Below, one piece after another: positions 41 through 12,015 of a stretch of DNA of 12,015 nucleotides. Each line of letters opens with the position of its first letter. Position 1 is the first letter of the stretch. The notes under the pieces were generated by a model that saw only the letters and a list, made by a program, of their open reading frames with translations, was not told the origin of the DNA and made no database searches. This DNA is from Gemmataceae bacterium (lineage in GTDB: Bacteria; Planctomycetota; Planctomycetia; Gemmatales; Gemmataceae): positions 1-12,015 of the forward strand of contig CANLGS010000047.1 of assembly GCA_947490035.1 (NCBI GenBank). Reading direction: 5' to 3'. Both the position numbers and the translations under genes were made by a program.

Positions 41-56
41 GGGGGCTTACGCCCCC
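41..56. repeat. Short GC palindrome at left edge
   Basis: GGGGGC (41-46) and GCCCCC (51-56) flank a TTAC loop. A second short inverted pair follows, CGCCAA (61-66) and TTGGCG (74-79). The heptamer TTGGCGC occurs at 4-10 and again at 74-80, bracketing the palindrome. The 'GGGGGCTTACGCCCCCCGCTCG' type of sequence is one I associate with dispersed Gemmata repeats, from memory and unverified. It sits immediately upstream of, or inside, the membrane-protein gene. Confidence 0.45.
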
Positions 57-80
57 CGCTCGCCAATCACAACTTGGCGC

Positions 81-1034
81 ATGGCGTTCCTGCTCGTCGG
101 CATCGTGGCCGCGTGCGGGTTTACTCCGCTGGTCAACCCGCACGGCATGGAGATGATCCGCATCTGGCAGAAGATCGTCGGCTCAAAGGTGCTGCCCGAA
201 GTCGTCAACGAACACATGCCGATGGACCCGACTTCGCCGCTCGGCTTGATGGTTCTCGCGCTCGGCGGGTTCTACCTCGTGTTGCTCGCGGGGACGTTCC
301 CGAAGGTGCCGCGCGTGTCGTGGCTGATCCCGCTCGTGTGGCTTGCGCTGAGCTTCAAGGGCATCCGACAGGGGCCGCTGTTCGCGGTGTGCGCGGGCGT
401 CGCCATCGCGGACCTGTGGAAGCACACGCTCTGGCACCGGCTGCTCGTGAAGCACGGCGACGGCTCGACCGCGTGGGACGCGGACGACACCGCCGCAGCC
501 GCGGCGCGGCGCGGGCCGGTGTGGGCCGCGCTCCTGATCCCGGCGCTGCTGGTGGCGGTGTCGTTCAAGCTGCAAGCGCACAAGGTCGAAGTTCCGGTGA
601 TCGGCTCCGGGTGGGCGCGGCTCGACCCCAACTTCATCCCGTCCGACATGACGACCGAAATGACCACTTACGCGGCGAGCGTGCCACACGGCACGCCGAT
701 CTTCAACGACGCGAACCTCGGCGGCTACCTGATCTACCACACGCCGACGCTGAAAATCTTCATGGACGACCGGTGCGAGTTGTACGGCGACGACTGGATT
801 CGGAACTATTCCGATACGCTCGGCTTACCACCTGAAGAACTGGGCCTCGTGTTCGAGGGGTGGGCCGCGAAGTACAAGTTCGAGCGCGCGATCGTGATGA
901 CCAACCCGCCCGCGCAGGACAAGCCGCCGATCGAGCAGTACCTGATGAGCGCGTCGGGGAAGTGGCGCGAGGTGAGCCGCGGCACGCGGGCCGTGATGTT
1001 CGAGCGGGTGAGGGAAGGTGAACCGCGACCGTGA
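81..1034 (+). CDS. C-terminal part of a planctomycete multi-pass membrane protein (GT-C-like?)
   Basis: A 317-residue frame from the ATG at 81. Hydrophobic segments lie at about residues 1-19, 51-73, 80-112 and 145-163, followed by a roughly 150-residue soluble C-terminus. That tail carries FNDANLGGYLIYHTP and KIFMDDRCELYGDDW, resembling the 'GGYLI..kvFiDgR..lYG' tail I recall on large planctomycete membrane proteins related to GT-C glycosyltransferases. The 'NPHG' after the first segment and the 'EHMPMDPTSPLG' loop fit the same family. Such proteins normally have several more N-terminal TM segments. This frame has no stop back to base 3, and no ribosome site precedes the ATG, so the gene may start outside the window or have been cut by the palindrome at 41-56. 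The last five residues (GEPRP) and the TGA lie in the repeat at 1017-1090. The gene is convergent with the STAS gene. Being coding is well supported; the enzymatic role is not. Confidence 0.7.
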   Translation: MAFLLVGIVAACGFTPLVNPHGMEMIRIWQKIVGSKVLPEVVNEHMPMDPTSPLGLMVLALGGFYLVLLAGTFPKVPRVSWLIPLVWLALSFKGIRQGPLFAVCAGVAIADLWKHTLWHRLLVKHGDGSTAWDADDTAAAAARRGPVWAALLIPALLVAVSFKLQAHKVEVPVIGSGWARLDPNFIPSDMTTEMTTYAASVPHGTPIFNDANLGGYLIYHTPTLKIFMDDRCELYGDDWIRNYSDTLGLPPEELGLVFEGWAAKYKFERAIVMTNPPAQDKPPIEQYLMSASGKWREVSRGTRAVMFERVREGEPRP

Positions 1035-1090
1035 GGGAGCGGGTGGATGGGCCGCTGATGTGTCCACCCGCTCCCTCACGGTCGCGGTTC
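1017..1090. repeat. Family A palindrome, copy 1 (28-bp perfect inverted arms)
   Basis: The arms at 1020-1047 and 1063-1090 are perfect reverse complements of 28 bases around a 15-base loop. The core reads AACCGCGACCGTGAGGGAGC. It belongs to the same family as the palindrome at 2821-2884. The left arm overlaps the end of the membrane-protein gene and provides its TGA at 1032-1034. The right arm ends ten bases before the stop of the convergent STAS gene at 1100. By position it could act as a bidirectional terminator, although no T-tract follows on either strand. Confidence 0.85.
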
Positions 1091-1099
1091 GCCACACGG

Positions 1100-1483
1100 T
1101 CAGTCGCTGCCGCTGAGGGCGTTGATCGCTTCGGCCGAGGTGTCGTAAAGCGCCCAGTACATTTCCAGGTTGGTGATCCGCAGCAGTTCGCGGATGTTGG
1201 GGTTCACGCCGGCCAGCACCAGTTCGCTGCCGCGAGCGGCCAACAGGTGGTGGCAGCGCAGCAGGAACGTGATGAACGCCGAGCCGAAGTACGTCACCGC
1301 GGACAGGTCCACGATGATGTTGTTGGGCGGGTCTTCCTTCAGCGGCGCGAGGACCATCTCCGCGGCCGGCTGGAGGAGCGTTTCCGGCAGGTCTTCCACC
1401 TGCGGCGACGGGACGATCACGGCCACCTCGCCGTGCCGCCTGACCTGGAAGAACTCGTTAGCCAGGTCCATGTGAGAAGCCAT
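1100..1483 (-). CDS. STAS-domain protein (anti-sigma factor antagonist-like)
   Basis: A 127-residue single-domain protein with the STAS arrangement: an N-terminal beta pair (EFFQVRRHGEVAVIVPSP), a central strand and loop IIVDLSAVTYFGSAF at about 56-70, then ELVLAGVNPNIRELLRITNL. In SpoIIAA/RsbV relatives the central loop reads 'DSSG' and its serine is phosphorylated by a partner kinase. Here it is FGSAF: Ser68 is kept, but the preceding Asp is Gly and the following Gly is Phe. It may work in partner switching with an anti-sigma factor, or as a protein-interaction module. No kinase or phosphatase gene lies beside it. ATG at 1483 is used; Met5 at 1471 is an alternative, and neither has a clear ribosome site. 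A possible promoter lies at 1530-1558. It stands alone, separated from citrate synthase by the palindrome at 1583-1640. Confidence 0.85.
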   Translation of the reverse strand: MASHMDLANEFFQVRRHGEVAVIVPSPQVEDLPETLLQPAAEMVLAPLKEDPPNNIIVDLSAVTYFGSAFITFLLRCHHLLAARGSELVLAGVNPNIRELLRITNLEMYWALYDTSAEAINALSGSD

Positions 1484-1529
1484 GTGTGGAATCGTTGAGT
1501 GACGGGCGACCGGTTCACTGGTCTACCAC

Positions 1530-1558
1530 ACGTTACCCGCGAACGGGTGTCGAATCAA
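1530..1558 (-). promoter_or_regulatory. Candidate sigma70-type promoter for the STAS gene
   Basis: Read on the minus strand, TTGATT (1558-1553) and TAACGT (1535-1530) are separated by exactly 17 bases. The -35 keeps TTGA; the -10 keeps only TA...T. This would start transcription about 40 bases before the ATG at 1483. It is an inference from spacing and partial consensus. Confidence 0.35.
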
Positions 1559-1582
1559 GCGCCCGCCGCGCCCCGCCTTTTC

Positions 1583-1640
1583 TTGTGGCACCGGTCTCCA
1601 GACCGGTGAAGCCTCACCGGTCTGGAGACCGGTGCCACAA
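1583..1640. repeat. Family B palindrome (27-bp perfect arms, 4-base loop)
   Basis: The arms at 1583-1609 and 1614-1640 are perfect reverse complements around the loop AGCC. The arm begins TTGTGGCACCGGTCTCCAGA and contains a smaller inner palindrome (ACCGGTCTCCAGACCGGT). It lies eleven bases past the stop of citrate synthase (1651), between it and the STAS gene. It could form a very stable hairpin and act as a transcript end or an mRNA-stabilising element. There is no T-tract. Its sequence is unrelated to the other palindromes in the window apart from the outer 'TGTGGCAC', which recurs in the element at 7408-7474. Confidence 0.85.
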
Positions 1641-1650
1641 ATCTGTTCGC

Positions 1651-2793
1651 TCACCCGCGTTCGCCCAGAGGCTTGACCGCGCGCGCCGCCAGGCCTTTAT
1701 ACAGCGCGCGCGGGCGGATGAGCCGGTTGTTGTCGAGTTGCTCGATCACGTGCGCCGCCCAGCCGGTGATGCGCGACATCGCGAAGATCGGCGTGTACAG
1801 CGGGATTTCGAGCTTCATCGCGTGATACAGCCGGCCGGCCGGCCAGTCGAGGTTCGGGAACATGTTCTTCTCGGCCGCCATCACGCGCTCGATGATGTCC
1901 GCCGTCTCTTCCCACTTCAGCGGATCACCTCCGCCCTCGTGGGCGGGGTTCGCCTCGGCCGCGGCGCGGGCGTACTTCTTCAGAATGCCCGCGCGCACGT
2001 CGCCGGTCTTGTAGACGCGGTGGCCGAAGCCCATGATGCGCTCTTTGCGAGCGAGCGCCGCCTTCGTCCACGCCTCCGCGTGTTCCGGGCCGCCGGCCGC
2101 GAGCAGGATGTCCATCACCTTCTCGTTCGCCCCGCCGTGCAGCGGCCCCTTCAGCGCGCCGATCGCGCCCGTGATGCCGCTGTGCAGGTCGGACAGCGTG
2201 GACACGATGACCCGGGCCGCGAACGTACTCGCGTTGAACTCGTGTTCGGCGTACAGGATCAGCGACACGTCCATCGCCTTCACTTCGGCCGGCGACGCCT
2301 CGACCCCGCGAAGCATGTAGAGGAAGTTCGCGGCGTGCGACAAGTCCTGGCGCGCGGCCACTTCCGGTTGTCCCTTCACGATGCGGTGGTGGTCCGCGAT
2401 GGCGACCGGGATTTGCGCCAGCAGTCGCTCGGCCTTGCGCAGGTTCGCGTCGTGCGAGTTGTCGGCCGCGTCCTGGTCGAAGTGGCCCAGCGCGCTGACC
2501 GCGGTGCGGAGCGCGTCGAGCGGCGTCGTCCACTTGGGCAGTGCCGCGAACAACTCCTTCAGCGGCGGCGGGAGCCGGCGCGCGGCCGCGACGCGCGTGT
2601 GGAACTGCTTCAACTGCGCCGCGGTGGGCAACTCGCCGTGCAGCAGCAGGTACGCGACCTCGTCGAACGTGCAGTGGTCGGCGAGGTCGCCGACGCTGTA
2701 GCCGCGGTAGCTCAGGCCGCCTTCGACGGTGCAGATGGCGGTTTCGCCCGCGGTCACGCCTTCGAGACCGGGAGAGTAGGTTGGAGTCGTCAT
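1651..2793 (-). CDS. gltA: Citrate synthase
   Basis: A 380-residue protein of type II citrate synthase length (about 370-430). It condenses oxaloacetate with acetyl-CoA to citrate in the TCA cycle, in the cytoplasm. Expected catalytic elements are in order: AEHEFNAST at 182-190, GPLHGGANEK with His219, GFGHRVYK with His258, FPNLDWPAG with Asp316, then GWAAHVIEQ and NNRLIRPRA, where Arg360 would bind substrate. The 'DPRA' after GHRVYK reads GDVRA. The nearest homologues could be 2-methylcitrate synthases (PrpC), which sequence alone does not separate reliably; no prpB or prpD is nearby. The frame can be extended to a GTG at 2823, but that codon lies in the palindrome at 2821-2884. ATG 2793 (MTTPTYSPGLEG) gives a normal citrate synthase N-terminus and is chosen. 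GAGAAA ten or so bases upstream is only a weak ribosome site. Confidence 0.95.
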   Translation of the reverse strand: MTTPTYSPGLEGVTAGETAICTVEGGLSYRGYSVGDLADHCTFDEVAYLLLHGELPTAAQLKQFHTRVAAARRLPPPLKELFAALPKWTTPLDALRTAVSALGHFDQDAADNSHDANLRKAERLLAQIPVAIADHHRIVKGQPEVAARQDLSHAANFLYMLRGVEASPAEVKAMDVSLILYAEHEFNASTFAARVIVSTLSDLHSGITGAIGALKGPLHGGANEKVMDILLAAGGPEHAEAWTKAALARKERIMGFGHRVYKTGDVRAGILKKYARAAAEANPAHEGGGDPLKWEETADIIERVMAAEKNMFPNLDWPAGRLYHAMKLEIPLYTPIFAMSRITGWAAHVIEQLDNNRLIRPRALYKGLAARAVKPLGERG

Positions 2794-2820
2794 GGTTGTT
2801 TCTCGTCGCGGACAGAGATT

Positions 2821-2884
2821 CACCCGCTCCCTGACGGTCGCGGTTCACCAATCTGGGTGAACCGCGACCGTCAGGGAGCGGGTG
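2821..2884. repeat. Family A palindrome, copy 2 (29-bp perfect arms)
   Basis: The arms at 2821-2849 and 2856-2884 are perfect reverse complements of 29 bases with a six-base loop. The right arm reads GGTGAACCGCGACCGTCAGG and onward. It matches the palindrome at 1017-1090 except mainly for one swapped base pair and the loop. It fills most of the gap between the MlaE permease stop (2896) and the citrate synthase start (2793), so it lies in the citrate synthase leader if the two genes are cotranscribed. Confidence 0.85.
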
Positions 2885-2895
2885 GGCGATTGAGG

Positions 2896-3699
2896 TTAAA
2901 TCACCTTCGCGTTGGTGGGCGGCCACAGCACAGCGTAAACGGTGTTGGCAACCATCGCGAGCAGGAAGTCGATCATCAGGATGGCGACGAACGCCACGAC
3001 GAACGCCTCAGTCGCGGCCCGGCCGACGCCCTCCGCCCCGGCCTTGCTGTTGAACCCGCGGTGGCACGCGATCAGCGACAGCACGCCGCCGAACACCACC
3101 GCCTTCATCAGCCCCACGGCCACGTCCCACACCTTCACGAACTCGCGGGTGTGGCGCCAGTAGTGGTAGCTGTCGATGTTGTACACATGGAGGCAGATGA
3201 GGGAACTGCCGAGCAGCCCCATCACGTCGGCCAGCACCGTGAGCAGCGGTAGCAGCAGCAGGGCCGCCAGCACGCGCGGCCCGGCGAGGTACTTCACCGG
3301 ATCGACGCCCAAACACGCGAGCGCGTCGAGTTGCTCGGTCACGCGCATCGTCGCCAGTTCCGCCGACATCGCGGAGCCGACGCGCCCTGCGAGCATCACC
3401 GCCGCGAGCACCGGCCCGAGTTCCCGCACCACGGAGATGTGAATCACCGCGCCGAGCGACGTTTCCAGTCCGATGGCGTGGAACTGCCCATACGCTTGCA
3501 CCGCGAGCACCATGCCGATGAACAGGCCGGTGATGGCGACGACGCCGACGCTGTTGGCGCCGACCTCGACCGCGATGCGGAGGAACTCGCGCCGCCCGAA
3601 CGCGCGGCCGGTGATGCCGGCGACCGCCCGCAGCGCGAACAGCCACCAGTCGCCGAACGCGACGAGCGCCGATGTAAACGCGGAAGGGGTTGACGACAT
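2896..3699 (-). CDS. mlaE: MlaE-family ABC transporter permease (lipid transport)
   Basis: A 267-residue integral membrane protein of usual MlaE length (about 260). The signature region is clear: RELGPVLAAVMLAGRVGSAM (92-111), then AELATMRVTEQLDALACLGV and DPVKYLAGPRVLA. A conserved 'C.RGFNSKAGAEGVGRAAT' segment precedes the last TM helices. In proteobacteria MlaE is the permease of the MlaFEDB complex, which moves phospholipids between outer and inner membrane; in plants the homologue is TGD1. The partner ATPase (MlaF) and MCE protein (MlaD) are not in this window. The frame can be extended 14 residues to a TTG at 3741; the added stretch is Arg/Thr-rich and unlike the family, so ATG 3699 is preferred. 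Neither start has a ribosome site. It lies 81 bases after mgtE on the same strand. Confidence 0.9.
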   Translation of the reverse strand: MSSTPSAFTSALVAFGDWWLFALRAVAGITGRAFGRREFLRIAVEVGANSVGVVAITGLFIGMVLAVQAYGQFHAIGLETSLGAVIHISVVRELGPVLAAVMLAGRVGSAMSAELATMRVTEQLDALACLGVDPVKYLAGPRVLAALLLLPLLTVLADVMGLLGSSLICLHVYNIDSYHYWRHTREFVKVWDVAVGLMKAVVFGGVLSLIACHRGFNSKAGAEGVGRAATEAFVVAFVAILMIDFLLAMVANTVYAVLWPPTNAKVI

Positions 3700-3780
3700 G
3701 CACGCGGTTGTACCGCGCCGGCGCGCGGAAGGGCAGGCCAATGTGTGTGAACGGCGGGAGAGTCGCCGCGGCGGACCACT

Positions 3781-5406
3781 TTACAGCAAGATGAGCCACG
3801 CGGCCGAGAAGAAGATCGCGATGCCGGTCACGTCCACGAACGTGGCGACGAGCGCGCCGGAGGCGATGGCCGGGTCGCCGCCGAGCCTGCTAATGACCAG
3901 CGGGATCACGCACCCGATCAGCGTGCCCCACAAGCAGATTCCCAGCACCGCGACCGAGATCGCCGCGCCGAGCCGCCACCGGCTGACCGGTTCCGTGCGC
4001 ACCTCGCACTCGGCCGGGAAATGGTACACCCAGTAGTCCGCGTGCTTCTCCGCCGGGTCCAACTGCTTCACCCCCTCCGGTAACCGGACGCGCGCTCTCT
4101 TCTCGGTCGTCGTCGTTTGCGACGCGCCGGCGGCAACGGGAACGTCGTGGCGCCCGTCGGCCGCCAGTTCGGTGCCCGGCGGCACGCGCAAGCTGAATTC
4201 TTCCTTCACCTTTCGCGGTCCGCTGCGGGTGTCGCTCGGAGTCAGCGAGCCGCGCACGAACGCGATTGCACCCAGCGCGCCGCCCAGCGCCAGCCCCATC
4301 AGAAGTTCGCGGCGCAGCACACGCCGCCAGTCGCGCGGGGTGACGTACCCCAGCGCCATCGCTCGCGTGACGAGCGTCGCGGCCTGCGTGCCGGAGTTAC
4401 CGCCGGTCGAGATGCACAGCGGGACGAACAGCGCCAGCACCACGACGGCGGCGATGAGTTCTTCAAACCGCTCCATCACGGTGAACGTGGCGAGTTCCGC
4501 GACGAACAGCACCGCGAGCCACTTCACCCGGCTCTTCCACACGCGGTAGAAACTCGCGTTCAGGTAGTCGCCCTCGATCGGGCCGACGGCCGCCTGACGC
4601 TGCATGTCCTCGGTCGCCTCCTCGCGCACCACGTCGAGTACGTCGTCGTGGGTCACGATGCCGATCAGCCCGAACTGGTCGTCTACCACGGGCGCGGCGA
4701 GGAAGTCGTACCGCGCGAACAACTGCGCCACCAATTCCTGATCGTCGCTATGCTTGAGGGTAACGAGGTCGGTTTCCATCAGCTCGCGCACGAGCGCGTG
4801 CCGCGGGGCGAGGATGAGGTCTCGCAGCGACACCACGCCGAGCAACCGGCGCGGGCTGAGCGAACCGTCGCCACGCCGGTTCGGGTCGTCGAGAACGTAG
4901 ATGTAGTAGATGGTTTCGCGGTCGGGCGCCTGCTGGCGAAGCTGGTCGATGGCTTCCGCCGCGGTGAGCGTGCCGGGCAGCCACGCGTAGTCGGTCGTCA
5001 TCAGCGCGCCGACGGTGTTCTCGCCGTACTGGAACAGCGTCGCGATGTCCTTGCGGTCCGCTTCGTCCACCAGCCGCATGATGGATTCGGTCACGCGACC
5101 CGGCAGCCGGCGCAGTAGATCGACGCGGTCGTCGTGCGACATCTTGGTGAGCAGCGCGCCCATCTGCGGGCGGGCCTTCTCCGCCATCAGGACTTGTTGA
5201 GCCGGCGTGAGGTACTCGAACACGGACGCCTGCGTGCGGATGTTCGCGTTGCTGATGACCTCCCAGATTTGTTCGGGCGTGAACTCGTCGTCGAGCGCCT
5301 CCGCGACGGTCGCGGGGTGCAGCGACTCGCAGAACTCGCGCAGGCCCGCGGCGTTCTTCTCGTCGAGCATCAGCTTGACTTCGGGGCTGAACAGCGGGTG
5401 AACCAT
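3781..5406 (-). CDS. mgtE: Magnesium transporter MgtE with an extra periplasmic loop
   Basis: A 541-residue protein with the complete MgtE order. The N-terminal helical sensor domain is at about 10-130 (LHPATVAEALDD, then helical repeats). Two CBS domains span about 135-265 (GALMTTDYAWLP; LMETDLVTLKHSDD; FLAAPVVDD). Five membrane helices run from about 295 to 541. Pore motifs are present: PLCISTGGNSGTQ (329-341), GGDPAIASGALVATFVDVTG (509-528), and Asp525 where the family has its Mg2+-binding pore aspartate. MgtE dimers import Mg2+ and close when cytoplasmic Mg2+ binds the N and CBS domains. The protein is about 90 residues longer than usual because of an insert at about 388-476 between TM3 and TM4, which topology places outside the cytoplasm. 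The ATG at 5406 lies just outside the palindrome at 5415-5525 and has no ribosome site. Confidence 0.95.
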   Translation of the reverse strand: MVHPLFSPEVKLMLDEKNAAGLREFCESLHPATVAEALDDEFTPEQIWEVISNANIRTQASVFEYLTPAQQVLMAEKARPQMGALLTKMSHDDRVDLLRRLPGRVTESIMRLVDEADRKDIATLFQYGENTVGALMTTDYAWLPGTLTAAEAIDQLRQQAPDRETIYYIYVLDDPNRRGDGSLSPRRLLGVVSLRDLILAPRHALVRELMETDLVTLKHSDDQELVAQLFARYDFLAAPVVDDQFGLIGIVTHDDVLDVVREEATEDMQRQAAVGPIEGDYLNASFYRVWKSRVKWLAVLFVAELATFTVMERFEELIAAVVVLALFVPLCISTGGNSGTQAATLVTRAMALGYVTPRDWRRVLRRELLMGLALGGALGAIAFVRGSLTPSDTRSGPRKVKEEFSLRVPPGTELAADGRHDVPVAAGASQTTTTEKRARVRLPEGVKQLDPAEKHADYWVYHFPAECEVRTEPVSRWRLGAAISVAVLGICLWGTLIGCVIPLVISRLGGDPAIASGALVATFVDVTGIAIFFSAAWLILL

Positions 5407-5414
5407 GACGGAAC

Positions 5415-5525
5415 CATTGCGGAATGCGGAATGCGGAGTGCGGAATCAAGAACAAGAAATGAAGACAAGAGGGCGCTTTGGTCTTGTTCTTCTATTCCGC
5501 ATTCCGCACTCCGCATTCCGCAATG
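5415..5525. repeat. Family C palindrome (GCGGAATGCGG type) between panC and mgtE
   Basis: The outer arms 5415-5446 and 5494-5525 (32 bases each) are reverse complements with two mismatches and are built from iterated GCGGAAT/GCGGAGT units. An inner pair, AAGAACAAGA (5448-5457) and TCTTGTTCTT (5482-5491), extends the stem toward the loop. The left arm ends nine bases from the mgtE start codon. The right arm encodes the last ten residues of PanC, and its inner edge holds the panC TAG (5494-5492). The A/G-rich unit structure suggests replication slippage or repeat expansion inside the arms. Confidence 0.85.
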
Positions 5526-6364
5526 GGAAGGTTGTCGATCAAGCGCGTCGTGCCCAGGAACACCGCGACGGCCGCGACCGCGGGCCGGCCGAGCCGCGTG
5601 AGCGGTTGCAGCGTCTCCGCGTCCACGACGCGGGCGTAATCGACGCGCGCGCCGGGAATCGCAGATAGCTCCGCGTGCAGCGCCGACTCCAGCCGCGCCG
5701 CGTCCACTTCGCCCGCGACGGCGCGCGCGCGTGTCGTTCGTAGTGCCGCCTGGATGCGCGGCGCGAGCGCGCGGTCTTCGGCACTCAGGTAGCGGTTGCG
5801 CGAACTCAGCGCCAGGCCGTCCGGCTCGCGCACCGTCGGTTCGACGCACACCTCGACGGGGACGTTCAAGTCGCGCACCATCTGCACGATAATACGCGCC
5901 TGCTGGTAGTCTTTTGACCCGAAATGCGCCGCGTCGGGCCGGACGATGTTGAACAGCTTCAGCACAACCGTGCAGACGCCGCGGAAGTGCCCCGGTCGCG
6001 TCGCCCCACACAGGTGGTCGCCCAGCGTTGACACGTCCACGAACGTGAACGAATTCTCCGGGTACATCGCTTCGACGGCGGGCGCGAAGATCAGGTCCGC
6101 GCCCGCGTCGCCGCACACCTTCTGATCGGCTTCGAGCGTGCGCGGGTATTTGGCGAAGTCCTCTTTCGGCCCAAACTGCGTCGGGTTCACAAAGATCGAC
6201 ACGACCACGAAGCCCGACCGCCTTCGGGCCGCGCGCACGAGCGCCGCGTGCCCCTCGTGGAGCGCGCCCATCGTCGGCACCAAGCCAACCGACTTGCCCA
6301 GGGCGCGCGCCGCTGCGCCGGCGCGGCGCACTTCGGCGATGGTGGTAACGGTGGGAGGGAGCAT
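5492..6364 (-). CDS. panC: Pantothenate synthetase (pantoate-beta-alanine ligase)
   Basis: A 290-residue protein, close to the family's usual 280. It joins pantoate and beta-alanine with ATP, giving pantothenate for CoA, in the cytoplasm. The nucleotidyltransferase-fold signatures are all present: PTMGALHEGH (30-39, with the HxGH-type His36 and His39), IFVNPTQFGPKEDFAKYPRT (57-76), RPGHFRGVCTVVLKLFNI (123-140), HFGSKDYQQ (147-155) and REPDGLALSSRNRYL (179-193, the KMSKS-equivalent loop). The expected end of the protein is around LIDNLP (275-280). The final ten residues IAECGVRNAE and the TAG stop are encoded by the palindrome at 5415-5525. ATG 6364 gives a normal N-terminus. No other pan gene is adjacent; the CYTH gene lies 67 bases upstream on the same strand. 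Confidence 0.96.
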   Translation of the reverse strand: MLPPTVTTIAEVRRAGAAARALGKSVGLVPTMGALHEGHAALVRAARRRSGFVVVSIFVNPTQFGPKEDFAKYPRTLEADQKVCGDAGADLIFAPAVEAMYPENSFTFVDVSTLGDHLCGATRPGHFRGVCTVVLKLFNIVRPDAAHFGSKDYQQARIIVQMVRDLNVPVEVCVEPTVREPDGLALSSRNRYLSAEDRALAPRIQAALRTTRARAVAGEVDAARLESALHAELSAIPGARVDYARVVDAETLQPLTRLGRPAVAAVAVFLGTTRLIDNLPIAECGVRNAE

Positions 6365-6392
6365 GGAGTAGCCATTGCGTTTCTTGTTTTTG

Positions 6393-6415
6393 CCCTCTCC
6401 CGCAAGGGGAGAGGG
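6393..6415. repeat. CCCTCTCCC hairpin between CYTH gene and panC
   Basis: CCCTCTCCC (6393-6401) and GGGAGAGGG (6407-6415) form a perfect nine-base stem with a five-base loop GCAAG. It lies between the stop of the CYTH gene (6432) and the panC start (6364). On the plus strand it is preceded by a T-rich run (TTTCTTGTTTTT, 6380-6391). Read on the minus strand, the direction of both genes, the hairpin is therefore followed by AAAAAC rather than U, so it does not look like an intrinsic terminator for the CYTH transcript. Confidence 0.7.
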
Positions 6416-6431
6416 ACGGAAGAAAACACTC

Positions 6432-6995
6432 TTACGCCGCGCCGCTCGCCTGCGCTTCCAGAACCATTCCCAGGTACGAGCGCCGTTCTTGTTCCGTTAG
6501 TCCCAATTCGCTCGCCACGGCAAGCAGCGATGTTTTCGCCGCTTCGTACTGTGCTTCCTCCGCCAGAATCTCCAGTTCGATGAACTCGCCCACGCGCTCG
6601 ACGCTGTCGAAGCAGACCTCGAAATCGAACCCGTCGCGGTGGAGGTGGTAGACGCGGCGCTTCTTGCGGACGGTCGTCACCGGTTTGTACCCGAGCGCGG
6701 CGAGCAAGCGTTCCGTGTCGGCCGCGGTTAGGTCGCCGTCCGCAAGCGCGACCTCGATCTCGGCGCGGGTCTTGGTCTCGGTGTCGCGCTTCGGCCCTTT
6801 ATAGGTCAGGTAGTTCTTCGCGCCGATGCGGCGCAACCGGAACGCCTCGTCGGTCGCCTTCAGGTCGCGGTCGGGCGCCGACAGGTACAGGTCCACGTCG
6901 GTGCGGTCCTGCGCGAGCGTCGCGCCCCAGTTGAGGAGCGTCGCGACGGCCGCCGCGCGGTCCGCGTTCCGGTACTTCACTTCGACTTCGAGCAT
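6432..6995 (-). CDS. CYTH-domain protein, CyaB-like class IV adenylate cyclase / triphosphate-tunnel enzyme
   Basis: A 187-residue single-domain protein with the CYTH hallmark ExExK at the very N-terminus (Glu3, Glu5, Lys7 in MLEVEVKYR). Charged residues that would line the triphosphate tunnel follow: FRLRR (Arg53, Arg55), LTYKGP (Lys66), AEIEV (Glu79, Glu81), VRKKRRVY (Lys111-Arg114), CFDSVERVGEFIELE (Asp130, Glu137, Glu140, Glu142), and RRSYLGMVLE near the end. The overall match is to the CyaB subgroup (about 180 residues). Members hydrolyse or cyclise nucleoside triphosphates, or cleave inorganic triphosphate or thiamine triphosphate; most CyaB-like proteins have no proven cyclase activity, so the substrate is left open. 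ATG 6995 begins the motif directly. Divergent from the Rieske gene across an 86-base gap. Confidence 0.9.
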   Translation of the reverse strand: MLEVEVKYRNADRAAAVATLLNWGATLAQDRTDVDLYLSAPDRDLKATDEAFRLRRIGAKNYLTYKGPKRDTETKTRAEIEVALADGDLTAADTERLLAALGYKPVTTVRKKRRVYHLHRDGFDFEVCFDSVERVGEFIELEILAEEAQYEAAKTSLLAVASELGLTEQERRSYLGMVLEAQASGAA

Positions 6996-7081
6996 CTTCG
7001 CATCCCGAGAGCGTGTTCCCTTCGGCTAAGATAGTTTGGTACACTGGCTGCGGACATCCGCGAAGCGAAGGAGAAGGAACC

Positions 7082-7396
7082 GTGCCCCGGCGCGTGACGG
7101 TCGCGAAAGTGGCGGACATCCCCGACGGCGGGAACGTGGTGGTCAGCGTCCTCCAGCGGGACGTTGCCATCTTCAACGTGAAGGGCGAGTTCTTCGCCAT
7201 CGACGACTTCTGCCCGCACATGGGCGCGTCGCTGTCGGGCGGGTACGTCGAGGACGGGTGCGTGACATGCCCGTGGCACTTCTGGCGGTTCCGCCTCGCC
7301 GACGGCGCGTGGGACGACAACCCGAAGGTGAAGATCGGCGCGTACCCGATCCACGTCGATGGCGCCGACGTGCAGTTGGAGCTACCGGACGTTTGA
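7082..7396 (+). CDS. Small Rieske [2Fe-2S] ferredoxin (NirD / dioxygenase-ferredoxin type)
   Basis: A 104-residue cytoplasmic Rieske domain with no signal peptide or membrane anchor. The cluster ligands are Cys44 and His46 in CPHMGASLSGG, and Cys63 and His66 in CPWHFWRF, separated by 16 residues as in the family (CxH-X15-17-CxxH). The residue after the second motif is Phe where most relatives have Gly (CPWHGW). Start: the frame can be read from a GTG at 7013, but the GTG at 7082 is preceded by AAGGAG (7068-7073, eight bases away), one of the few strong ribosome sites in the window, and gives MPRRVTVAKVADIPDGG, a standard start for this family. Relatives serve as electron carriers to oxygenases or as NirD subunits of nitrite reductase; no partner enzyme is adjacent. 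It is followed by the palindrome at 7408 and then a cytochrome gene. Confidence 0.93.
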   Translation: MPRRVTVAKVADIPDGGNVVVSVLQRDVAIFNVKGEFFAIDDFCPHMGASLSGGYVEDGCVTCPWHFWRFRLADGAWDDNPKVKIGAYPIHVDGADVQLELPDV

Positions 7397-7407
7397 TTTC
7401 GGTTTTC

Positions 7408-7474
7408 GTGGCACAGACATTCCTGTCTGTGTGCTTCGAGGGTCCAGGCGCACAGACAGGAATGTCTGTGCCAC
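7408..7474. repeat. Family D palindrome (CACAGACATTCCTGTCTGTG type)
   Basis: The arms 7408-7431 and 7451-7474 are perfect 24-base reverse complements; pairing can extend inward through one G-T pair to 7434/7448. The arm itself contains the imperfect smaller palindrome ACAGACATTCCTGTCTGT. It starts twelve bases after the Rieske stop and ends 28 bases before the cytochrome start. I recall this sequence as a common dispersed element in Gemmata genomes (unverified here). It could separate expression of the two genes. Confidence 0.85.
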
Positions 7475-7501
7475 AAGACAAAAGGCCGCAAGAGGCACAC
7501 C

Positions 7502-7981
7502 ATGATTCGCACCCGCTTCTGGTTCGCGGCAGCGCTTTTCGCGGCTTGCGCGTTCGTGCCGGTGGCACAGTCGCAGCCGCAGCCGGCGAAGAAGGCCGCG
7601 CCCAAGCTCGAACCGGTGGCCGAGACGAAGTTGCTCATGGAAGGGATGGCCGACCCGAACACCAAGGCGCTCGGGAAGCTGCTCGCCGCGAAGCCGAAGG
7701 ACGCGGAGGCGTGGTCGTTCGCTCGCGGTCAGGCGCTGTTGCTCGCGGAAACCGGCAACCTGCTGCTGATGCGGCCTCCGAAGACGAAGGACGGGCAAGA
7801 CTCGTGGCTGGTACACGCGGCCGACCTGCGCGAGAGCGCGGCGGGCCTGGCGCGGGCCGCCGCCGCGAAGGACTACGTGCAGGCGCGGACGGCGCTGGCG
7901 GGGGTCGCGAACGCGTGCAACCGGTGCCACCAGGCGTTCCGCGTGGGCGTCCGCGTGGACCCGTTCCCCGACGACCGCTGA
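7502..7981 (+). CDS. Exported monohaem cytochrome c (c'/c556-like)
   Basis: A 159-residue protein with a typical signal peptide (RTR, then a hydrophobic core at about 7-22, then AQSQPQ), so it should act in the periplasm. The single haem-binding motif CNRCH is at 139-143, close to the C-terminus, as in the four-helix cytochrome c'/c556 family. The N-terminal helix region LLMEGMADPNTKALGKLL (44-61) resembles the first helix of that family, where c556-type proteins use a Met as axial ligand; Met46 or Met49 could play that part. Several Ala/Leu-rich amphipathic helices lie between. AGAGG at 7491-7495, six bases before the ATG, is a reasonable ribosome site. It is likely an electron carrier or sensor; the acceptor is unknown. 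It follows the Rieske gene, suggesting but not proving a shared redox role. Confidence 0.85.
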   Translation: MIRTRFWFAAALFAACAFVPVAQSQPQPAKKAAPKLEPVAETKLLMEGMADPNTKALGKLLAAKPKDAEAWSFARGQALLLAETGNLLLMRPPKTKDGQDSWLVHAADLRESAAGLARAAAAKDYVQARTALAGVANACNRCHQAFRVGVRVDPFPDDR

Positions 7982-7990
7982 CGTTGGCGC

Positions 7991-8019
7991 TTGACACCGG
8001 GTTGTCACCGCCCTAGCCT
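7991..8019 (+). promoter_or_regulatory. Candidate promoter for the 8121 membrane-protein gene
   Basis: A perfect -35 hexamer TTGACA (7991-7996) lies 17 bases before TAGCCT (8014-8019), which keeps TA...T of the -10 box. It starts nine bases after the cytochrome stop. TGACA (7992-7996) and TGTCA (8003-8007) also form a small inverted repeat, which could be an operator over the -35 element. Transcription would begin near 8026, leaving a leader of about 95 bases. Confidence 0.5.
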
Positions 8020-8120
8020 GAGCGCGATTCGCGCAAATTCCGACGTGCGATGATCGAAGTACCAAGTAACGCGGGCCGCGCGGCCCGGCGCCGTTCACCT
8101 TCACCACCGAGTGCAATCCG

Positions 8121-9050
8121 ATGTCCACCCCGCCGAATCCGCCGCCCGCCGGAGCCGTCCCGCCGACGGGCGCACCGGCAACACCCGCGCCCGCGGCTGC
8201 CCCCCACAAGCGGTCGATCACCCTCGTCAGCCACTCGATGCTGTTCTACTGGTGGCCGATCTGGTTGCTGGGGTTCACGATGGCGGCGGTGACGTACTTC
8301 GAGGACCACCGCCTCGCGATCCTGCCCCCGGACGCGACGGTCACTCAGAAGAAGGACGACAAGGGCAACACGTGGAAGGACGACAAAGGTAACACGTATT
8401 ACACGGTCGGCGTTCCGGGCGATGCCACGACGACTTCGTTGTCCAAAGCCGTGGACAACTCGACGCCGACCCCCGGCGCGGTGGTCAACGCCTTCCCGAC
8501 GCGAGTCTCCCAGAAGGTCTGGATGGCGCCCGTGTTCTGCGTCGTTCTGCTACTGACCGTCGTCATCACGAACGTGCCGCTTCGCGGGCTGTGGTCGTTC
8601 CTGGTGCTGTTGATGTTCGTGGTGATTGCCCTGATCATCTCGCTCTTTCCCGATGGCTGGGATAAGTTACTCAGCACGCTCGGCCACCTGCACATCTACA
8701 TCAACATGGCGGGCTACCTGTTCATCGCGACCGTGGTGTTCATCCTCTGGTCGGTGTCGGTGTTCATCTTCGACCAGCGCACCTACATCGTGGTCACACC
8801 GGGCCAAGTCCGCGTGTGCGAACACGTCGGGGCGTCGATCCGTGTGTTCGACACCACCGGGATGACGTTCGAGAAGCAGCGCGACGACATGTTCCGGCAC
8901 TGGCTGCTGGGCTTCTTCTCCGGCGACCTGATCGTCCGCACTTCCGGTGCGGAAAAGGAGACGATCCGGCTCCCCAACGTGCTGTGGATTGGCTGGCGGC
9001 TGGACGACGTACAGAAACTCATGTCCGAGAAGGCGACCGTGGCTGGCTAG
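8121..9050 (+). CDS. Four-TM membrane protein with C-terminal PH-like region
   Basis: A 309-residue protein I do not recognise as a named family. Residues 1-30 are Pro/Ala-rich and probably disordered. Hydrophobic segments lie at about 40-60, 133-152, 156-176 and 193-217. The loop between the first two (61-130) is polar and holds a tandem octapeptide, KDDKGNTW then KDDKGNTY (78-93). After the last segment the sequence alternates short strands, TYIVVTPGQVRVCEHVG, SIRVFDTTGMTF, DLIVRTSGAEKETIRLPNV, ending in a helix, VQKLMSEK. This resembles the small bacterial PH-like (bPH2, YdbS-type) membrane-associated domain; that assignment is by pattern only. ATG 8121 has no strong ribosome site but follows a good candidate promoter at 7991-8019. 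A hairpin follows at 9080. Role unknown; a membrane-scaffold or envelope function would fit. Confidence 0.8.
   Translation: MSTPPNPPPAGAVPPTGAPATPAPAAAPHKRSITLVSHSMLFYWWPIWLLGFTMAAVTYFEDHRLAILPPDATVTQKKDDKGNTWKDDKGNTYYTVGVPGDATTTSLSKAVDNSTPTPGAVVNAFPTRVSQKVWMAPVFCVVLLLTVVITNVPLRGLWSFLVLLMFVVIALIISLFPDGWDKLLSTLGHLHIYINMAGYLFIATVVFILWSVSVFIFDQRTYIVVTPGQVRVCEHVGASIRVFDTTGMTFEKQRDDMFRHWLLGFFSGDLIVRTSGAEKETIRLPNVLWIGWRLDDVQKLMSEKATVAG
8352..8399 (+). repeat. 24-bp tandem duplication inside the 8121 gene
   Basis: Two adjacent 24-base units (8352-8375 and 8376-8399) encode KDDKGNTW and KDDKGNTY. They differ at two silent third positions (AAG/AAA, GGC/GGT) and in the last codon (TGG/TAT), so the duplication is not brand new and stays in frame. 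Confidence 0.85.
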
Positions 9051-9400
9051 GCGAGGTATCCGCCCTGGAAAAAGCATGCTTCCTCAGCCCAGAGCAACGC
9101 CCTGGGCTGAGGAGTGTAACCCCGCCGGGGTAAAAACCCCACGACCACATCCATCCGTTTCGCGTTTTTGCGACTTGCTTTCGCCCCGCGTCCGGGTCAG
9201 ACTGATCCCCCACGGAACTTTTGCGCGGCGCCGACCGTCCAACCGCGGGATTCTTGCTGCCCCCGCTGGTCGCCGCCCGAACCGTCCGATTTCCGACGCT
9301 CCCGCCGAACGGTGTTCCCGCCCGCTACTGCCAGTCCAGCGCGAACCGCGACGAGCCGACCCGCGGCGTGTCCGGTTCCCTTATTGCATCCGAGCCATTC
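9051..9400. other. 350-base intergenic region
   Basis: This region separates the 8121 membrane protein from the TPR protein. It starts with two hairpins (9080-9140). After them I see no gene or RNA structure I can support. The frame of the downstream gene stays open back to a TTG at 9221, but the 60 added residues look like untranslated leader. A weak promoter guess is TTGCTT (9175-9180) and CAGACT (9198-9203) with a 17-base spacer; the -10 match is poor. If used, the leader of the TPR gene would be almost 200 bases long. Confidence 0.4.
9080..9140 (+). terminator. Tandem hairpins after the 8121 gene
   Basis: The first stem pairs TCCTCAGCCCAG (9081-9092) with CTGGGCTGAGGA (9102-9113) across a nine-base loop. 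The second pairs GGGGT (9127-9131) with ACCCC (9136-9140) around AAAA. They begin 30 bases after the stop at 9050. No T-tract follows, so if they end the transcript it is not by the canonical intrinsic mechanism. The sequence also looks like a dispersed Gemmata-type repeat (from memory), so it may be another member of the repeat population. Confidence 0.45.
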
Positions 9401-11839
9401 ATGAACCTCGCCGTTCTTCACTTGCGCCTCCTCCTGCCGGCCCTCGTTCTCGGCGGCGTCGCCCTCGCTTTCGTTGAAAGTCACGGCGCGCCCCGTGCTC
9501 CCGACGCGCAAGACACCAAGGCAAAAGATAAGGACAAGGAGAAGGGCGGGCCGGAACGCGGGTCCATCGTCGAGGACCGCACCGCGCGCAAGCTCCTCGA
9601 AGCCGGCGACGCGCGGCTTGAAGCCGGCGAACCGGCGAAAGCCGTCGAGGTGTGGATGTCCGTGATCGAACGATACCCGCGAAGCAAGGTCCGCTTCGAC
9701 GCGTACCTGAAACTCGGCAACCACCTGCTCACCAAGGAACGCGCGTTCGACCGCGCCCGCACGTTCTTCGAGTCCGCCGCGGCCGACGACAACCCCAGCG
9801 AAGAGTCGCGCGCGGAGGCGACGCTGAAGGTCGGCGTGTGCTACTTCGAGGGCCGCAACTACGGCAAGTGCTTCAAGTACATGCGCGACGTGATCGAGAA
9901 GTACCCGGTCAGCCCGCAGGTGAACCAGGCGTACTACTACATCGGCCTGGGCCACTTCCAGCAGGGCCACTACAGCCGGGCAATCGCCGCGCTCGAACGG
10001 GTCGGCACCGCACTGCCCCCGCCGGACGCCACGCCCGACGGCATGAAGCCCGTGCCCGAACTGCTCGAAGCCGGCAAGCGCCTGTTCGTGCGCATCGAGG
10101 ACGCCGACCTCGCGGCGCTCGAACCCGGCAAGACCGTCAGCGTGAAAGTCGAATCCACCAGCGGCGACATCGAAACGGTGGAGTGCGTGCCCATCGGCCG
10201 CAACGTGCGCGTCGTCATCGGCTCCATCCCCACGGCGCTCGGCAAGGCAAAGCCCGGCAACGGGCGACTTGAGATTCGCGGCGGCGACAAGGTGAAGATC
10301 ACCTACCGCGACATGCACACCGCCGGCGGCGGCAAAGAGAACCTCGTGGTGAAGGAAATCGCCGTCGTCGGCACGGCCACCGCGACCATCGTGGACGGCG
10401 CGTACTCCGAGACGCTGCAAGGCGTCGTCCTCGGTCGCGGGATTCACCTCCAGGTTGTAGATGCCGACTTCGACCTGACCGACGGCGCGGACGTGCTGAA
10501 GGCGACGGTCGAAGTCTACCGCGAGAAGACGCCGGAGGAACTCACCGCGGAAGCCGGTCCCGGCGGGATGCCGCCGATGCCCAACAAGGCCGACCCGAAC
10601 AAGCTCGACCGCTTCAAGAAGATCGACAAGGTCGATGTGATTCTGACCGAGGCGAAGATCGTCCGCGCCGCGCCGGAGAACACCCCGCTCGTCCTTCCCA
10701 TGCTTGAGGAGCCGAAGAAGGACGAGCCGAAGAAAGACGGTGATCCGAAGAAGGACGAGCCAAAGAAAGACCCGCCGCCGGCGGTCGAGCCACCGAAGAA
10801 GGAAGAAGACGACGGCACGATTCACTCCGGCGTGTTCCGGGCGGTCGTGTCGCTGGAGAAGTCTGACATCGTGAAGCTCGACGATCAGGTGCTTCAGGCG
10901 CAGCCGAACGACCTCATCGTGCTGACGTACATCGACGCGAAGAACGCGACCGGCGAACCGCGCACGGTGGTCTTCAAGGCTCGCGTGGTGGAAGGCAGTC
11001 TCGGCAGCGTGCGCGTCTCGCAGACGCAAATCAACGATCAAGAACTGCGGGTCCGCACGCAACTCAAGACCGCGAGCGCGCTGACCAACATCGGCAACCG
11101 TTACAAGGAGTTCGGCCTCAAGCAGCACGCCGACCTGAAGTACGAGCAGGCGATGAAGCTGTGCGAAGAAATCAGCGCCGAAGCCGCGAAGCTCGGCGGG
11201 CGCACGCTGGAAGAGACCTACGTCCAGCTCTGGAAAATCTACTTCGAGATGGACAACCTCGACCTCGCCGCCGCGATGAGCCAGCGGTTGCAGAAGGAGT
11301 TCCCGAACAGCGAGTTCGTGGACGCCGCGCTGCTCTCGCTCGCACAAGTCGCCCGCAAGCAGAAGCAGATGCAGCGCGCCATCGGCATCTACACCAGCGT
11401 GCTGCGGTTGGAGAAAAGCCCGCTTCGCGGCGAGGCGCAGTTCGGCATCGCGGAGTGCTACGAGGAGATGGCGAAGGAGGTGGACGGCGCCCGCGCGTCG
11501 CAGCTCTTCGACCAGTCGTTCCAGGAGTACAAGAAGGTCTTCGACAAGCACCCGGACAGCGGGCGCGTGGGCGAAGCCGTCGCGAAGATGGCGAACTACT
11601 ACTACGTGCAGAAGGACTACGCCCGCGCCATCGACGTGTTCGAGACGGTGCTGCGTACCCACCCCGACGCCAAGTTCCTCGACGTGATCCTGTTCAACTA
11701 CGGCCGCTGCCTGTACCGCCTCGACAAGAAGACCGAGGCGCGCAAGCAGTTCGACCAGATGATCGCGGACTTCCCCGAAAGCCCCCTGGCGTCCGACGCC
11801 AAGAAGATCTCCGAAGCCCTCCGCAAAGCCGGGAACTGA
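9401..11839 (+). CDS. Exported TPR protein with two beta modules and a Lys-rich linker
   Basis: An 812-residue protein. Its start ATG 9401 opens a signal peptide (hydrophobic core at about 5-24), followed by a Lys/Asp-rich stretch (38-52). TPR-like helices span about 60-205 (AGEPAKAVEVWMSVIERYP; GRNYGKCFKYMRDVIEKYP; GHFQQGHYSRAIAALERV), the pattern of BamD/YbgF-like envelope proteins. The middle (about 228-535) is beta-rich and appears to hold two copies of one module. The first runs from RIEDADLAALEPGKTVSVKV to GDKVKITYRD. The second runs from QVVDADFDLTDGADVLKATV to NDLIVLTYIDA and contains a low-complexity EPKKD linker at 437-457. A second TPR array fills about 560-805. The frame upstream to a TTG at 9221 would bury the signal peptide and is rejected. 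Probably a periplasmic or surface scaffold; partners are unknown. Confidence 0.85.
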   Translation: MNLAVLHLRLLLPALVLGGVALAFVESHGAPRAPDAQDTKAKDKDKEKGGPERGSIVEDRTARKLLEAGDARLEAGEPAKAVEVWMSVIERYPRSKVRFDAYLKLGNHLLTKERAFDRARTFFESAAADDNPSEESRAEATLKVGVCYFEGRNYGKCFKYMRDVIEKYPVSPQVNQAYYYIGLGHFQQGHYSRAIAALERVGTALPPPDATPDGMKPVPELLEAGKRLFVRIEDADLAALEPGKTVSVKVESTSGDIETVECVPIGRNVRVVIGSIPTALGKAKPGNGRLEIRGGDKVKITYRDMHTAGGGKENLVVKEIAVVGTATATIVDGAYSETLQGVVLGRGIHLQVVDADFDLTDGADVLKATVEVYREKTPEELTAEAGPGGMPPMPNKADPNKLDRFKKIDKVDVILTEAKIVRAAPENTPLVLPMLEEPKKDEPKKDGDPKKDEPKKDPPPAVEPPKKEEDDGTIHSGVFRAVVSLEKSDIVKLDDQVLQAQPNDLIVLTYIDAKNATGEPRTVVFKARVVEGSLGSVRVSQTQINDQELRVRTQLKTASALTNIGNRYKEFGLKQHADLKYEQAMKLCEEISAEAAKLGGRTLEETYVQLWKIYFEMDNLDLAAAMSQRLQKEFPNSEFVDAALLSLAQVARKQKQMQRAIGIYTSVLRLEKSPLRGEAQFGIAECYEEMAKEVDGARASQLFDQSFQEYKKVFDKHPDSGRVGEAVAKMANYYYVQKDYARAIDVFETVLRTHPDAKFLDVILFNYGRCLYRLDKKTEARKQFDQMIADFPESPLASDAKKISEALRKAGN
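10709..10771 (+). repeat. In-frame EPKKD low-complexity repeat
   Basis: This part of the TPR gene (residues 437-457) is made of imperfect 15-base units GAGCCGAAGAAGGAC encoding EPKKD, four units with one GDPKKD variant and a Gly insertion. It makes a flexible, highly charged linker and is a likely site of length variation between strains. Confidence 0.8.
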
Positions 11840-11840
11840 A

Positions 11841-12015
11841 TGTAGTCATCACGCTCCGCGTGATGTCGGCTCCGCTGAGTGTAGTCATCACGCTCCGCGT
11901 GATGTCGGCTCCGCAGCGCGAGAAAACGAGGCAGCCACGCGTCAGCAGACATCACGCGGAGCGTGATGACTACACTCAGGACCGGCACAGAAGACATCAC
12001 GCGGAGCGTGATGAC
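11841..12015. repeat. Cluster of four family E palindromic repeats, running off the window
   Basis: Each unit centres on CATCACGCTCCGCGTGATG, itself an eight-base stem with a three-base loop. Two units are direct (11841-11875 and 11880-11914, 39 bases apart and identical over 35 bases). Two are inverted (11948-11974 and 11993 to beyond 12015). The arms 11875-11906 and 11948-11979 are perfect 32-base reverse complements around a 41-base spacer. The array begins one base after the TPR gene's stop. The organisation is like REP/BIME elements. No transposase or RAYT gene is visible in the window. Confidence 0.85.

Follow-up and report, generated by a model that had tools for sequence, protein, structure and literature searches.

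The GTAG REPs surveyed by Di Nocera (2013, PMC3733652) lie at gene 3' ends and, where genes converge, no more than 20 bp from either ORF, and the portion of that survey cited here includes Planctomycetes. A different kind of insertion is the intervening sequence of 23S rRNA, which in Coxiella carries tandem heptamers (GACAGAT) ahead of an S23p ORF and for which, as the same paper recalls in the text cited, a transposition origin was proposed in the past (PMC4990558). The function of the S23/IVP proteins and their link to rRNA intervening sequences have, in that account, been open since the early 1990s, and a study of rRNA insertions in CPR bacteria calls the S23 domain functionally uncharacterised in the passage used here (PMC11270868). 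IVP genes between cas genes have been taken as CRISPR-linked in the cited part of a further report (PMC3936711); insertion at gene junctions is an alternative reading of that arrangement.

The window analysed here, of 12,015 nt, is the whole of contig C47 of a MAG of 4.67 Mb in 754 contigs (completeness 68%), and it carries long hairpins at gene ends. We propose, with a probability of about 0.8 for the explanation as a whole, that these hairpins and their relatives are ends or gene-less forms of several small mobile elements that share a safe place just past stop codons. The explanation has three parts. Many of the families would be of the REP/REPIN type, that is, inverted pairs of tagged short palindromes, and each such family probably has a Y1 (HuH) transposase of its own, from the RAYT/IS200 group, that recognises it in the form of folded single-stranded DNA. 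Period-7 families, among them the heptamer family at 5414-5526, would most likely be short derivatives of larger elements, composed of an inverted heptamer array, a gene for an S23/IVP four-helix bundle and a further inverted heptamer array. The period-9 families may relate likewise to PDDEXK_3 (GxxExxY) genes.

Hairpin families in the window and in the genome

The 11 genes of the window, called with a custom gene caller and in some cases with shortened starts, are housekeeping or hypothetical. Their named protein neighbours come from Planctomycetes, Gemmata among them, and we refer to the genus as Gemmata-like. Six long hairpins have arm scores of 24-33, compared with a maximum of 15 over 100 dinucleotide shuffles, so the long gene-end hairpins pointed out in the initial annotation are real; RNA folding of the window hairpins gives z-scores of about -11 to -14. 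Their limits (Table 1) needed slight correction, to 5414-5526 from 5415-5525, and to 11836-11979 plus a truncated copy at 11988-12015 from 11841-12015. Chance inverted repeats were rejected on the shuffles and on a Markov control, which contained none, and a described RNA family was rejected because Rfam at gathering threshold gave no match in the window.

Table 1. Repeat elements of the window and genes mentioned in the text.
Feature	Position	Strand	Remark
Single family 2 repeat, GGCGAGC tag	41..66		match score 32
Family 4 hairpin, tag GGTGAAC	1017..1093 (core 1020-1090)		spans stop of first gene (1034)
Family 27 hairpin, TTGTGG + CACCGGTCTCCAGACCGGTG, inverted pair	1583..1640		10 nt past citrate synthase stop
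Citrate synthase gene	1651..2793	-	PF00285; start codon uncertain
Family 4 hairpin, second copy	2821..2884		11 nt past mlaE stop
mgtE-type transporter gene	3781..5406	-	served to locate orthologous loci
Family 9 heptamer hairpin	5414..5526		inverted arms of TGCGGAA-type 7-bp repeats; inner arms purine-rich
panC, pantoate-beta-alanine ligase	5492..6364	-	C-terminal tail encoded by hairpin
Family 7 piece	6393..6415		between panC and CYTH gene; match score 26
Family 0 hairpin, TTGTGG + CACAGACATTCCTGTCTGTG, inverted pair	7408..7474		11 nt past Rieske gene stop
Family 30 piece	9081..9140		3' of hypothetical gene 8121-9050; match score 32
Family 5 cluster (GAGTGTAGTCATCACGCTCCGCGTGATG)	11836..12015		begins at TPR gene stop

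The six long hairpins fall into five clusters, those at 1017 and 2821 going together, in keeping with an earlier count of at least five families; the description of these as unrelated went too far, since the families at 1583 and 7408 follow a common scheme (TTGTGGCAC plus an inner palindrome). The accompanying statement that nearly every gene junction carries a hairpin was too strong as well: long hairpins occupy five of the ten internal junctions, and short or decayed ones two more. The short hairpins do all belong to families (2, 7 and 30), with a best score of 14 among 36 background windows, each compared with 150 hairpins. One of them, at 41-66, falls within the open frame 3-1034 with which the contig opens, and either belongs to the first gene or immediately precedes it. 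Genus mates have the family 30 core as well, in their Y1 loci L146, L147 and L151. The right arm of the heptamer hairpin forms the last codons and the stop of panC (5492-5526) and so supplies the last residues of PanC; in G002 and G014, too, heptamer sequence extends into the end of panC. The family 5 cluster consists of two left arms and one right arm, with a fourth copy truncated by the contig end. That the contig stops within this repeat (11988-12015) suggests that such repeats may fragment the assembly.

The genome was sampled as its 80 longest contigs (1,084,776 bp, the six longest being cut at 20 kb), and hairpins were called at an arm score of 16 or more. The sample holds 316 hairpins, amounting to 29,856 bp, compared with none in the Markov control; 293 lie outside called genes and 23 are genic. 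Single-linkage clustering, in which nested elements can merge, yielded 84 clusters, 33 of them multi-copy and 51 single. Dispersal is seen for the window families, which have 38 (family 0), 16 (family 4, two of them in the window), 15 (family 5), nine (family 9) and two (family 27) members in the sample, and 16 pairs of same-family hairpins lie no more than 3.5 kb apart. Inverted pairing was observed as well. Arms are grouped closely, as doublets, for 59 of 62 in family 0, where 28 of 31 neighbour pairs face each other, for 28 of 29 in family 6 and 23 of 26 in family 8, and for only 33 of 56 in family 2, which is also atypical in having eight of its 22 members within genes. GTAG, or a degenerate GTRG, stands at one end of families 0, 5, 6, 8 and 27; families 2 and 4 carry GGYGARC instead, and the heptamer arms, like these two, have no GTAG/GTRG tag. 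A CGTC tag was not seen in those of the eight families examined whose tag is readable. Literature searches with the arm sequences, and for Gemmata together with "repetitive extragenic palindromic", found no report.

Some further sequence features were observed. GAAGAC/GTCTTC is enriched inside hairpins of unrelated families, for example at 5447-5493 of the window, occurring in 42% of heptamer/nonamer-type interiors, 20% of other hairpins and 6% of other intergenic windows. One called gene, 8.9 kb long, contains a family 27 hairpin (L011:5677-5738). Intergenic tandem arrays also occur outside hairpins, with units of 8 bp (x10, L065:154-234) and 7 bp (x7.4, L006:5246-5297).

Placement and turnover at gene ends

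Within the sample, a hairpin lies no more than 30 nt from 245 of 827 gene 3' ends, compared with 94 of 830 5' ends. Together with the 33 multi-copy families, this supports the earlier suggestion of a dispersed gene-end repeat system. Hairpins are found at 53 of 115 convergent, 191 of 571 tandem and 21 of 117 divergent junctions. At tandem junctions the median distance is 8 nt from the stop of the gene upstream and 40 nt from the start that follows, and even in residual gaps longer than 300 nt the nearness to the stop persists (median 54 vs 324 nt, n=16). This stop-proximal bias in long gaps exceeds what plain tolerance needs and, like the excess at 3' ends, the very stable folds and the scarcity of ordinary intrinsic terminators at the remaining gene ends (6 of 636), it would be expected if hairpins of whatever sequence were retained by selection as terminators or as stabilisers of mRNA 3' ends. 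Only two of the 245 gene-end hairpins are followed by a U-tract, however, on which ground canonical intrinsic terminators were rejected. Six congeners have no hairpin in the spacer between the Rieske and cytochrome genes, which in them measures 18-48 nt, orthologous junctions of congeners are often without hairpins, G017 of the same genus has none in the 140 kb of one contig, and the repeat families are paired with genes. Retention for function thus appears improbable, and selection for transcript-end hairpins, one of the two causes offered in the initial annotation, is not supported as the main one. Survival of mobile elements where insertion harms least agrees with the gene-end placement, which we take to stem mainly from such harmless insertions. 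The presence of hairpins at about 30% of gene 3' ends would then be explained, with no new regulatory system, by many repeat families occupying one safe niche.

Presence and absence of elements were observed at orthologous junctions, sites too divergent for exact element ends to be given. The 1583 site has no hairpin in either of two relatives (G001 and G004). At the 7408 site the six hairpin-free congeners are G013, G008, G010, G002, G004 and G018; G016 and G015 have unrelated hairpins there, and G001 has sequence resembling family 3. At the 2821 site no hairpin was detected in six of seven relatives, an unrelated one being present in the seventh; inspection by eye shows repeat-like sequence of other kinds in two of the six. 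Both relatives having the 1017 junction carry family 15-type elements there. At the panC-mgtE site, G002 and G014 have heptamer arms that have decayed, and G013, G008 and G010 have remnants with one arm, next to which G013 and G010 carry family 4-like hairpins. Another heptamer hairpin is present there in G011, G015 and G003, and G001 and G004 have an element-free spacer of 28-29 nt. The neighbouring MgtE protein (window 3781-5406) has full-length matches in G002, G008, G010, G013 and G016; in G001 and G004 the match covers residues 1-392 or 1-390 and a later piece only. These two genomes are closer than the others in the citrate synthase and STAS genes, and the mgtE pattern possibly reflects local recombination.

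Hairpin load differs widely within the genus. Among 17 genus mates the hairpin density of the syntenic region rises with the Y1 match count (rho 0.57, p 0.017, uncorrected for phylogeny). Three genomes with no Y1 match (G008, G012 and G017) have no hairpin in 48 kb of this region, and the other 14 have 32 in 197 kb; G009, with seven Y1 genes, has no hairpin within its 16 kb. In larger samples G017 again has none (140 kb), G008 has 38 in 400 kb and our genome 316 in 1,085 kb. The 95 hairpins per Mb of G008, in which no Y1 gene was detected, show that a genome can carry palindromes even when no such gene is detected in it. The range within one genus, from 0 in 140 kb to about 290 per Mb, makes the cost or use of the hairpins testable.

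Genes associated with the repeat families

Five Y1_Tnp genes were found in the MAG, all with the HuH and downstream Tyr motifs, and each adjoins a palindrome family (20, 12, 21, 11/14 and 5); at L003, which lies at a contig start, the palindrome is on one side of the gene only. Family 5, to which the window cluster at 11836-12015 belongs, is found on both sides of the RAYT-like gene at G000:C581 (L005) and in G004 (L154). The pairing is kept across species for four of the five RAYT-like genes, whose closest homologue among 61 loci has the same motif: family 12 at L140 (78% identity, followed by L139), family 21 at L158, family 11 at L148 and family 5 at L154. For family 20 the best homologue lacks the motif and the next three have family 30 cores. 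A strong hairpin is present in 20 of 30 Y1 loci of genus mates, and in G013 (L152) a family 4-like palindrome stands on both sides of the Y1 transposase gene; in none of 66 Y1 loci was there a motif match to family 0, 6, 8 or 27. Many families thus fit REP/REPIN sequences with RAYT-like enzymes, a known kind in unusual multiplicity. A single insertion mechanism blind to sequence, the other cause offered in the initial annotation, is not supported, given this pairing of palindrome families with the genome's own RAYT-like genes, and given the heptamer and nonamer families, which surround S23/IVP and PDDEXK_3 genes instead. Close to a broken Y1 match in a Pyrinomonadaceae MAG there is a hairpin built of nonamers (GACACAGAG unit; L311:2432-2499).

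Among the short arrays located within intergenic hairpins, those with a period of 7 form the largest class (68 of 176). A pattern of 26 bases from the 5414-5526 hairpin, with a gap of 42-72, was searched against GTDB contigs and matches at least 120 stretches, the chance expectation being about 0.002 by our own arithmetic. Among the matches listed (80), the pattern recurs in about ten phyla, the labels being those of record titles: Gemmatimonadetes 33, Acidobacteria 23, Planctomycetes 8, Sumerlaeota 5, Bacteroidota 3, Verrucomicrobia 2, Manganitrophaceae 2, and one each for Chloroflexi, Methylomirabilota, Microbulbifer and, doubtfully, Actinomycetota (L179, which carries an Acidobacteria scaffold name). 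It is sporadic, being found in two of 294 genomes across the phylum, one of them our own. A long open frame ends at the edge of 58 of the 71 listed elements that have enough flank (34% for random positions), at a median distance of 6 nt, and at L193 two close copies begin right at the stops of ordinary genes. The listed Gemmatimonadetes elements have interiors that are alike (120 of 528 loop pairs, same-genome pairs included, score 14 or more, compared with 0 of 528 when shuffled); in the groups compared among the matches listed, the interior is not common between phyla. Heptamer hairpins were also seen in three viral contigs of IMG/VR and a family 0 hairpin in one (L313-L316), a possible transfer route.

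Tandem heptamers might instead arise in place, slippage making the repeats and template switching mirroring them, in which case the hairpins would not be mobile. Arms are indeed more alike within than between elements in family 16 (2.0 vs 6.3) and family 9 (3.4 vs 6.2; permutation p 0.0005), and the relative L131 shows repeat expansion, but the within-element likeness is absent from families 10 (p 0.10) and 17 (p 1.0) and present in some REP families. Such an origin is very unlikely in view of the identical 26 bases in about ten phyla and the common Gemmatimonadetes interiors, both among the matches listed, and of the S23 genes located between arrays of this kind.

A Pfam search of eight genes enclosed by, or adjacent to, same-family hairpins identified one PDDEXK_3 gene, which lies between family 1 copies and corresponds to GxxExxY (TIGR04256). 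S23 genes (PF05635) were found in 11 of 13 genomes searched, with six matches in our genome, and were absent from G017 and from 14 control genomes; TIGR02436 scored above cut-off for our S23 genes on C18 and C79. Among nine heptamer carriers eight have S23, the sole near-constant gene in these genomes, which were picked for the heptamer. Inverted arrays of the same unit, 250-1400 bp apart, flank 17 of the 30 S23 loci analysed (from 53 matches, in genomes partly picked for heptamers); 12 of these have 7-bp units, and the units vary by locus. At the 31 PDDEXK_3 loci, which include two pieces of one gene (L368 and L369), same-unit arrays were found at 10 and inverted ones at eight. The remaining 13 S23 and 21 PDDEXK_3 loci had no such array pair. 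In the controls, arrays were found at none of 30 mgtE loci, in three of 290 pieces of our genome (one being a PDDEXK_3 element) and in 11 of 206 pieces from loci that had been selected, among the at least 120 pattern matches, because they carry heptamer hairpins. Several array pairs in heptamer-rich loci surround ordinary genes. In five heptamer loci of other phyla, the stretch between two arrays or beside an S23 fragment seems, when read by eye, to contain ordinary genes in L254, L262 and L256; it has no long frame in L268 and a frame without S23 likeness in L206, and in L400 heptamers lie beside a truncated S23 match.

A transposase beside heptamer elements was sought among the Y1 loci, and none was found: same-unit array pairs occur at 0 of 66. 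This, with the family 9 motif near only two of the 66, makes it most improbable that a Y1 transposase moves the heptamer elements in trans, as might be suspected from the lack of periodic-arm hairpins in 540 kb of two congeners with no detected Y1 genes, compared with 35 in our 1.085 Mb.

In our genome, inverted arms surround five of the six S23 genes, and both flanks of four match hairpin families (C692, families 25/46; C18, family 16; C496, family 29; C79, family 9); those on C206, where the left flank is short, and C13 have no matching hairpin family. The window hairpin at 5414-5526, itself with no ORF, scores 17 and 22 against the C79 flanks, compared with about 9 for unmatched genes. Two of our three PDDEXK_3 genes (C191 and C53) both match family 1, which has 30 hairpins; the third (C36) is truncated by a contig end. 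The heptamer and nonamer families thus agree with gene-less relatives of S23- and PDDEXK_3-encoding elements. The C79 and C18 elements lie between protein genes, not inside an rRNA gene like the intervening sequences that RNase III excises, and each is present in one relative and missing from four of five examined. At the C79 junction the S23 gene is common to our genome and G010 (89% identity) and begins a few bases past the stop; G013 and G008 have short spacers there, and G004 and G001 unrelated palindromes, typed by eye. At the C18 junction the gene is shared with G013 (86%), G010 and G008 have family 4-like hairpins by eye, and G004 and G001 have no S23 element. We infer from such arrangements, and not from any movement seen, that the encoded proteins, the RAYT-like ones included, bring about the movement.

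We know of no recombinase domain or activity in S23 proteins. This would suit a view of the S23 and PDDEXK_3 genes as passengers, carried or attracted by chance by repeats that another enzyme mobilises, as would the three carrier genomes with no Y1 match and the six with no PDDEXK_3. Every S23 gene inspected by eye is accompanied by a repeat unit of its own, however, which is expected if protein and repeat pair, and we regard passenger status as rather unlikely. For a direct role of the proteins we judge the odds about even on the following propositions taken jointly: that S23/IVP genes mark an unrecognised class of mobile elements with inverted heptamer ends, each protein lineage reading its own heptamer; that this class lands or survives a few bases from stops, sheds gene-less hairpins such as 5414-5526 and has spread through about ten phyla; that rRNA intervening sequences are members that landed in rRNA; and that a nonamer-ended sister class carries PDDEXK_3 (GxxExxY) proteins. 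The rRNA insertions may be the visible tip of the S23 class, given the heptamers before an S23 ORF and the terminal inverted repeats on record in the cited part of PMC4990558. Orphan heptamer repeats, known piecemeal from several phyla, are now tied to S23/IVP genes, and concrete S23 elements with filled and empty sites are at hand for testing.

Comparison with known systems

The REP-type families resemble the GTAG REPs and their RAYTs, as described in the cited part of PMC3733652, in the GTAG/GTGG tag, inverted dimers, position at gene 3' ends and adjoining RAYT genes. They differ in number, with 33 multi-copy families in 23% of one genome, and in that several families have a GGYGARC tag or heptamer arms. 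Similarly, the REPINs of Pseudomonas fluorescens SBW25 (Bertels and Rainey 2011, PMC3116915, in the text cited) are inverted REP doublets, mostly extragenic, with one REPIN type per RAYT, but form three groups, compared with many more families here from a quarter of a genome. REPtrons and the TnpA-REP classes (PMC6006769, in the part cited) share a Y1 HuH gene beside its own REP type and a patchy distribution; unlike them, four of our five transposases fall below the cut-off of NCBIfam REP_Tyr_transpos.

The heptamer families have several partial counterparts, here compared with the cited portions of each report. Like the inverted heptameric repeats of Xanthomonas (PMC4692102) and the class 3 elements of Geobacter metallireducens (PMC2700814), they are intergenic and built of tandem 7-bp units, in inverted pairs in the former and apparently inverted in the latter. 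The units in those genomes are different (GGGAATC and MTYCTGA) and have been discussed as G-quadruplexes or regulator sites. The TAACTGA repeats of Beggiatoaceae (PMC4679880) are likewise intergenic heptamers found in distant lineages, with horizontal transfer suggested, but are direct and lie mostly ahead of start codons. As far as the literature was searched, neither the S23-heptamer element nor the TGCGGAA hairpin has been described outside rRNA, and the portion of the GxxExxY and TIGR02436 literature consulted yielded nothing on repeats. The 23S intervening sequences (PMC4990558 and PMC11270868, in the text cited) share with the elements described here an S23/IVP ORF, terminal inverted repeats and tandem heptamers; unlike them, the present elements lie 3' of protein genes, in several copies with different heptamers, and have gene-less hairpin relatives.
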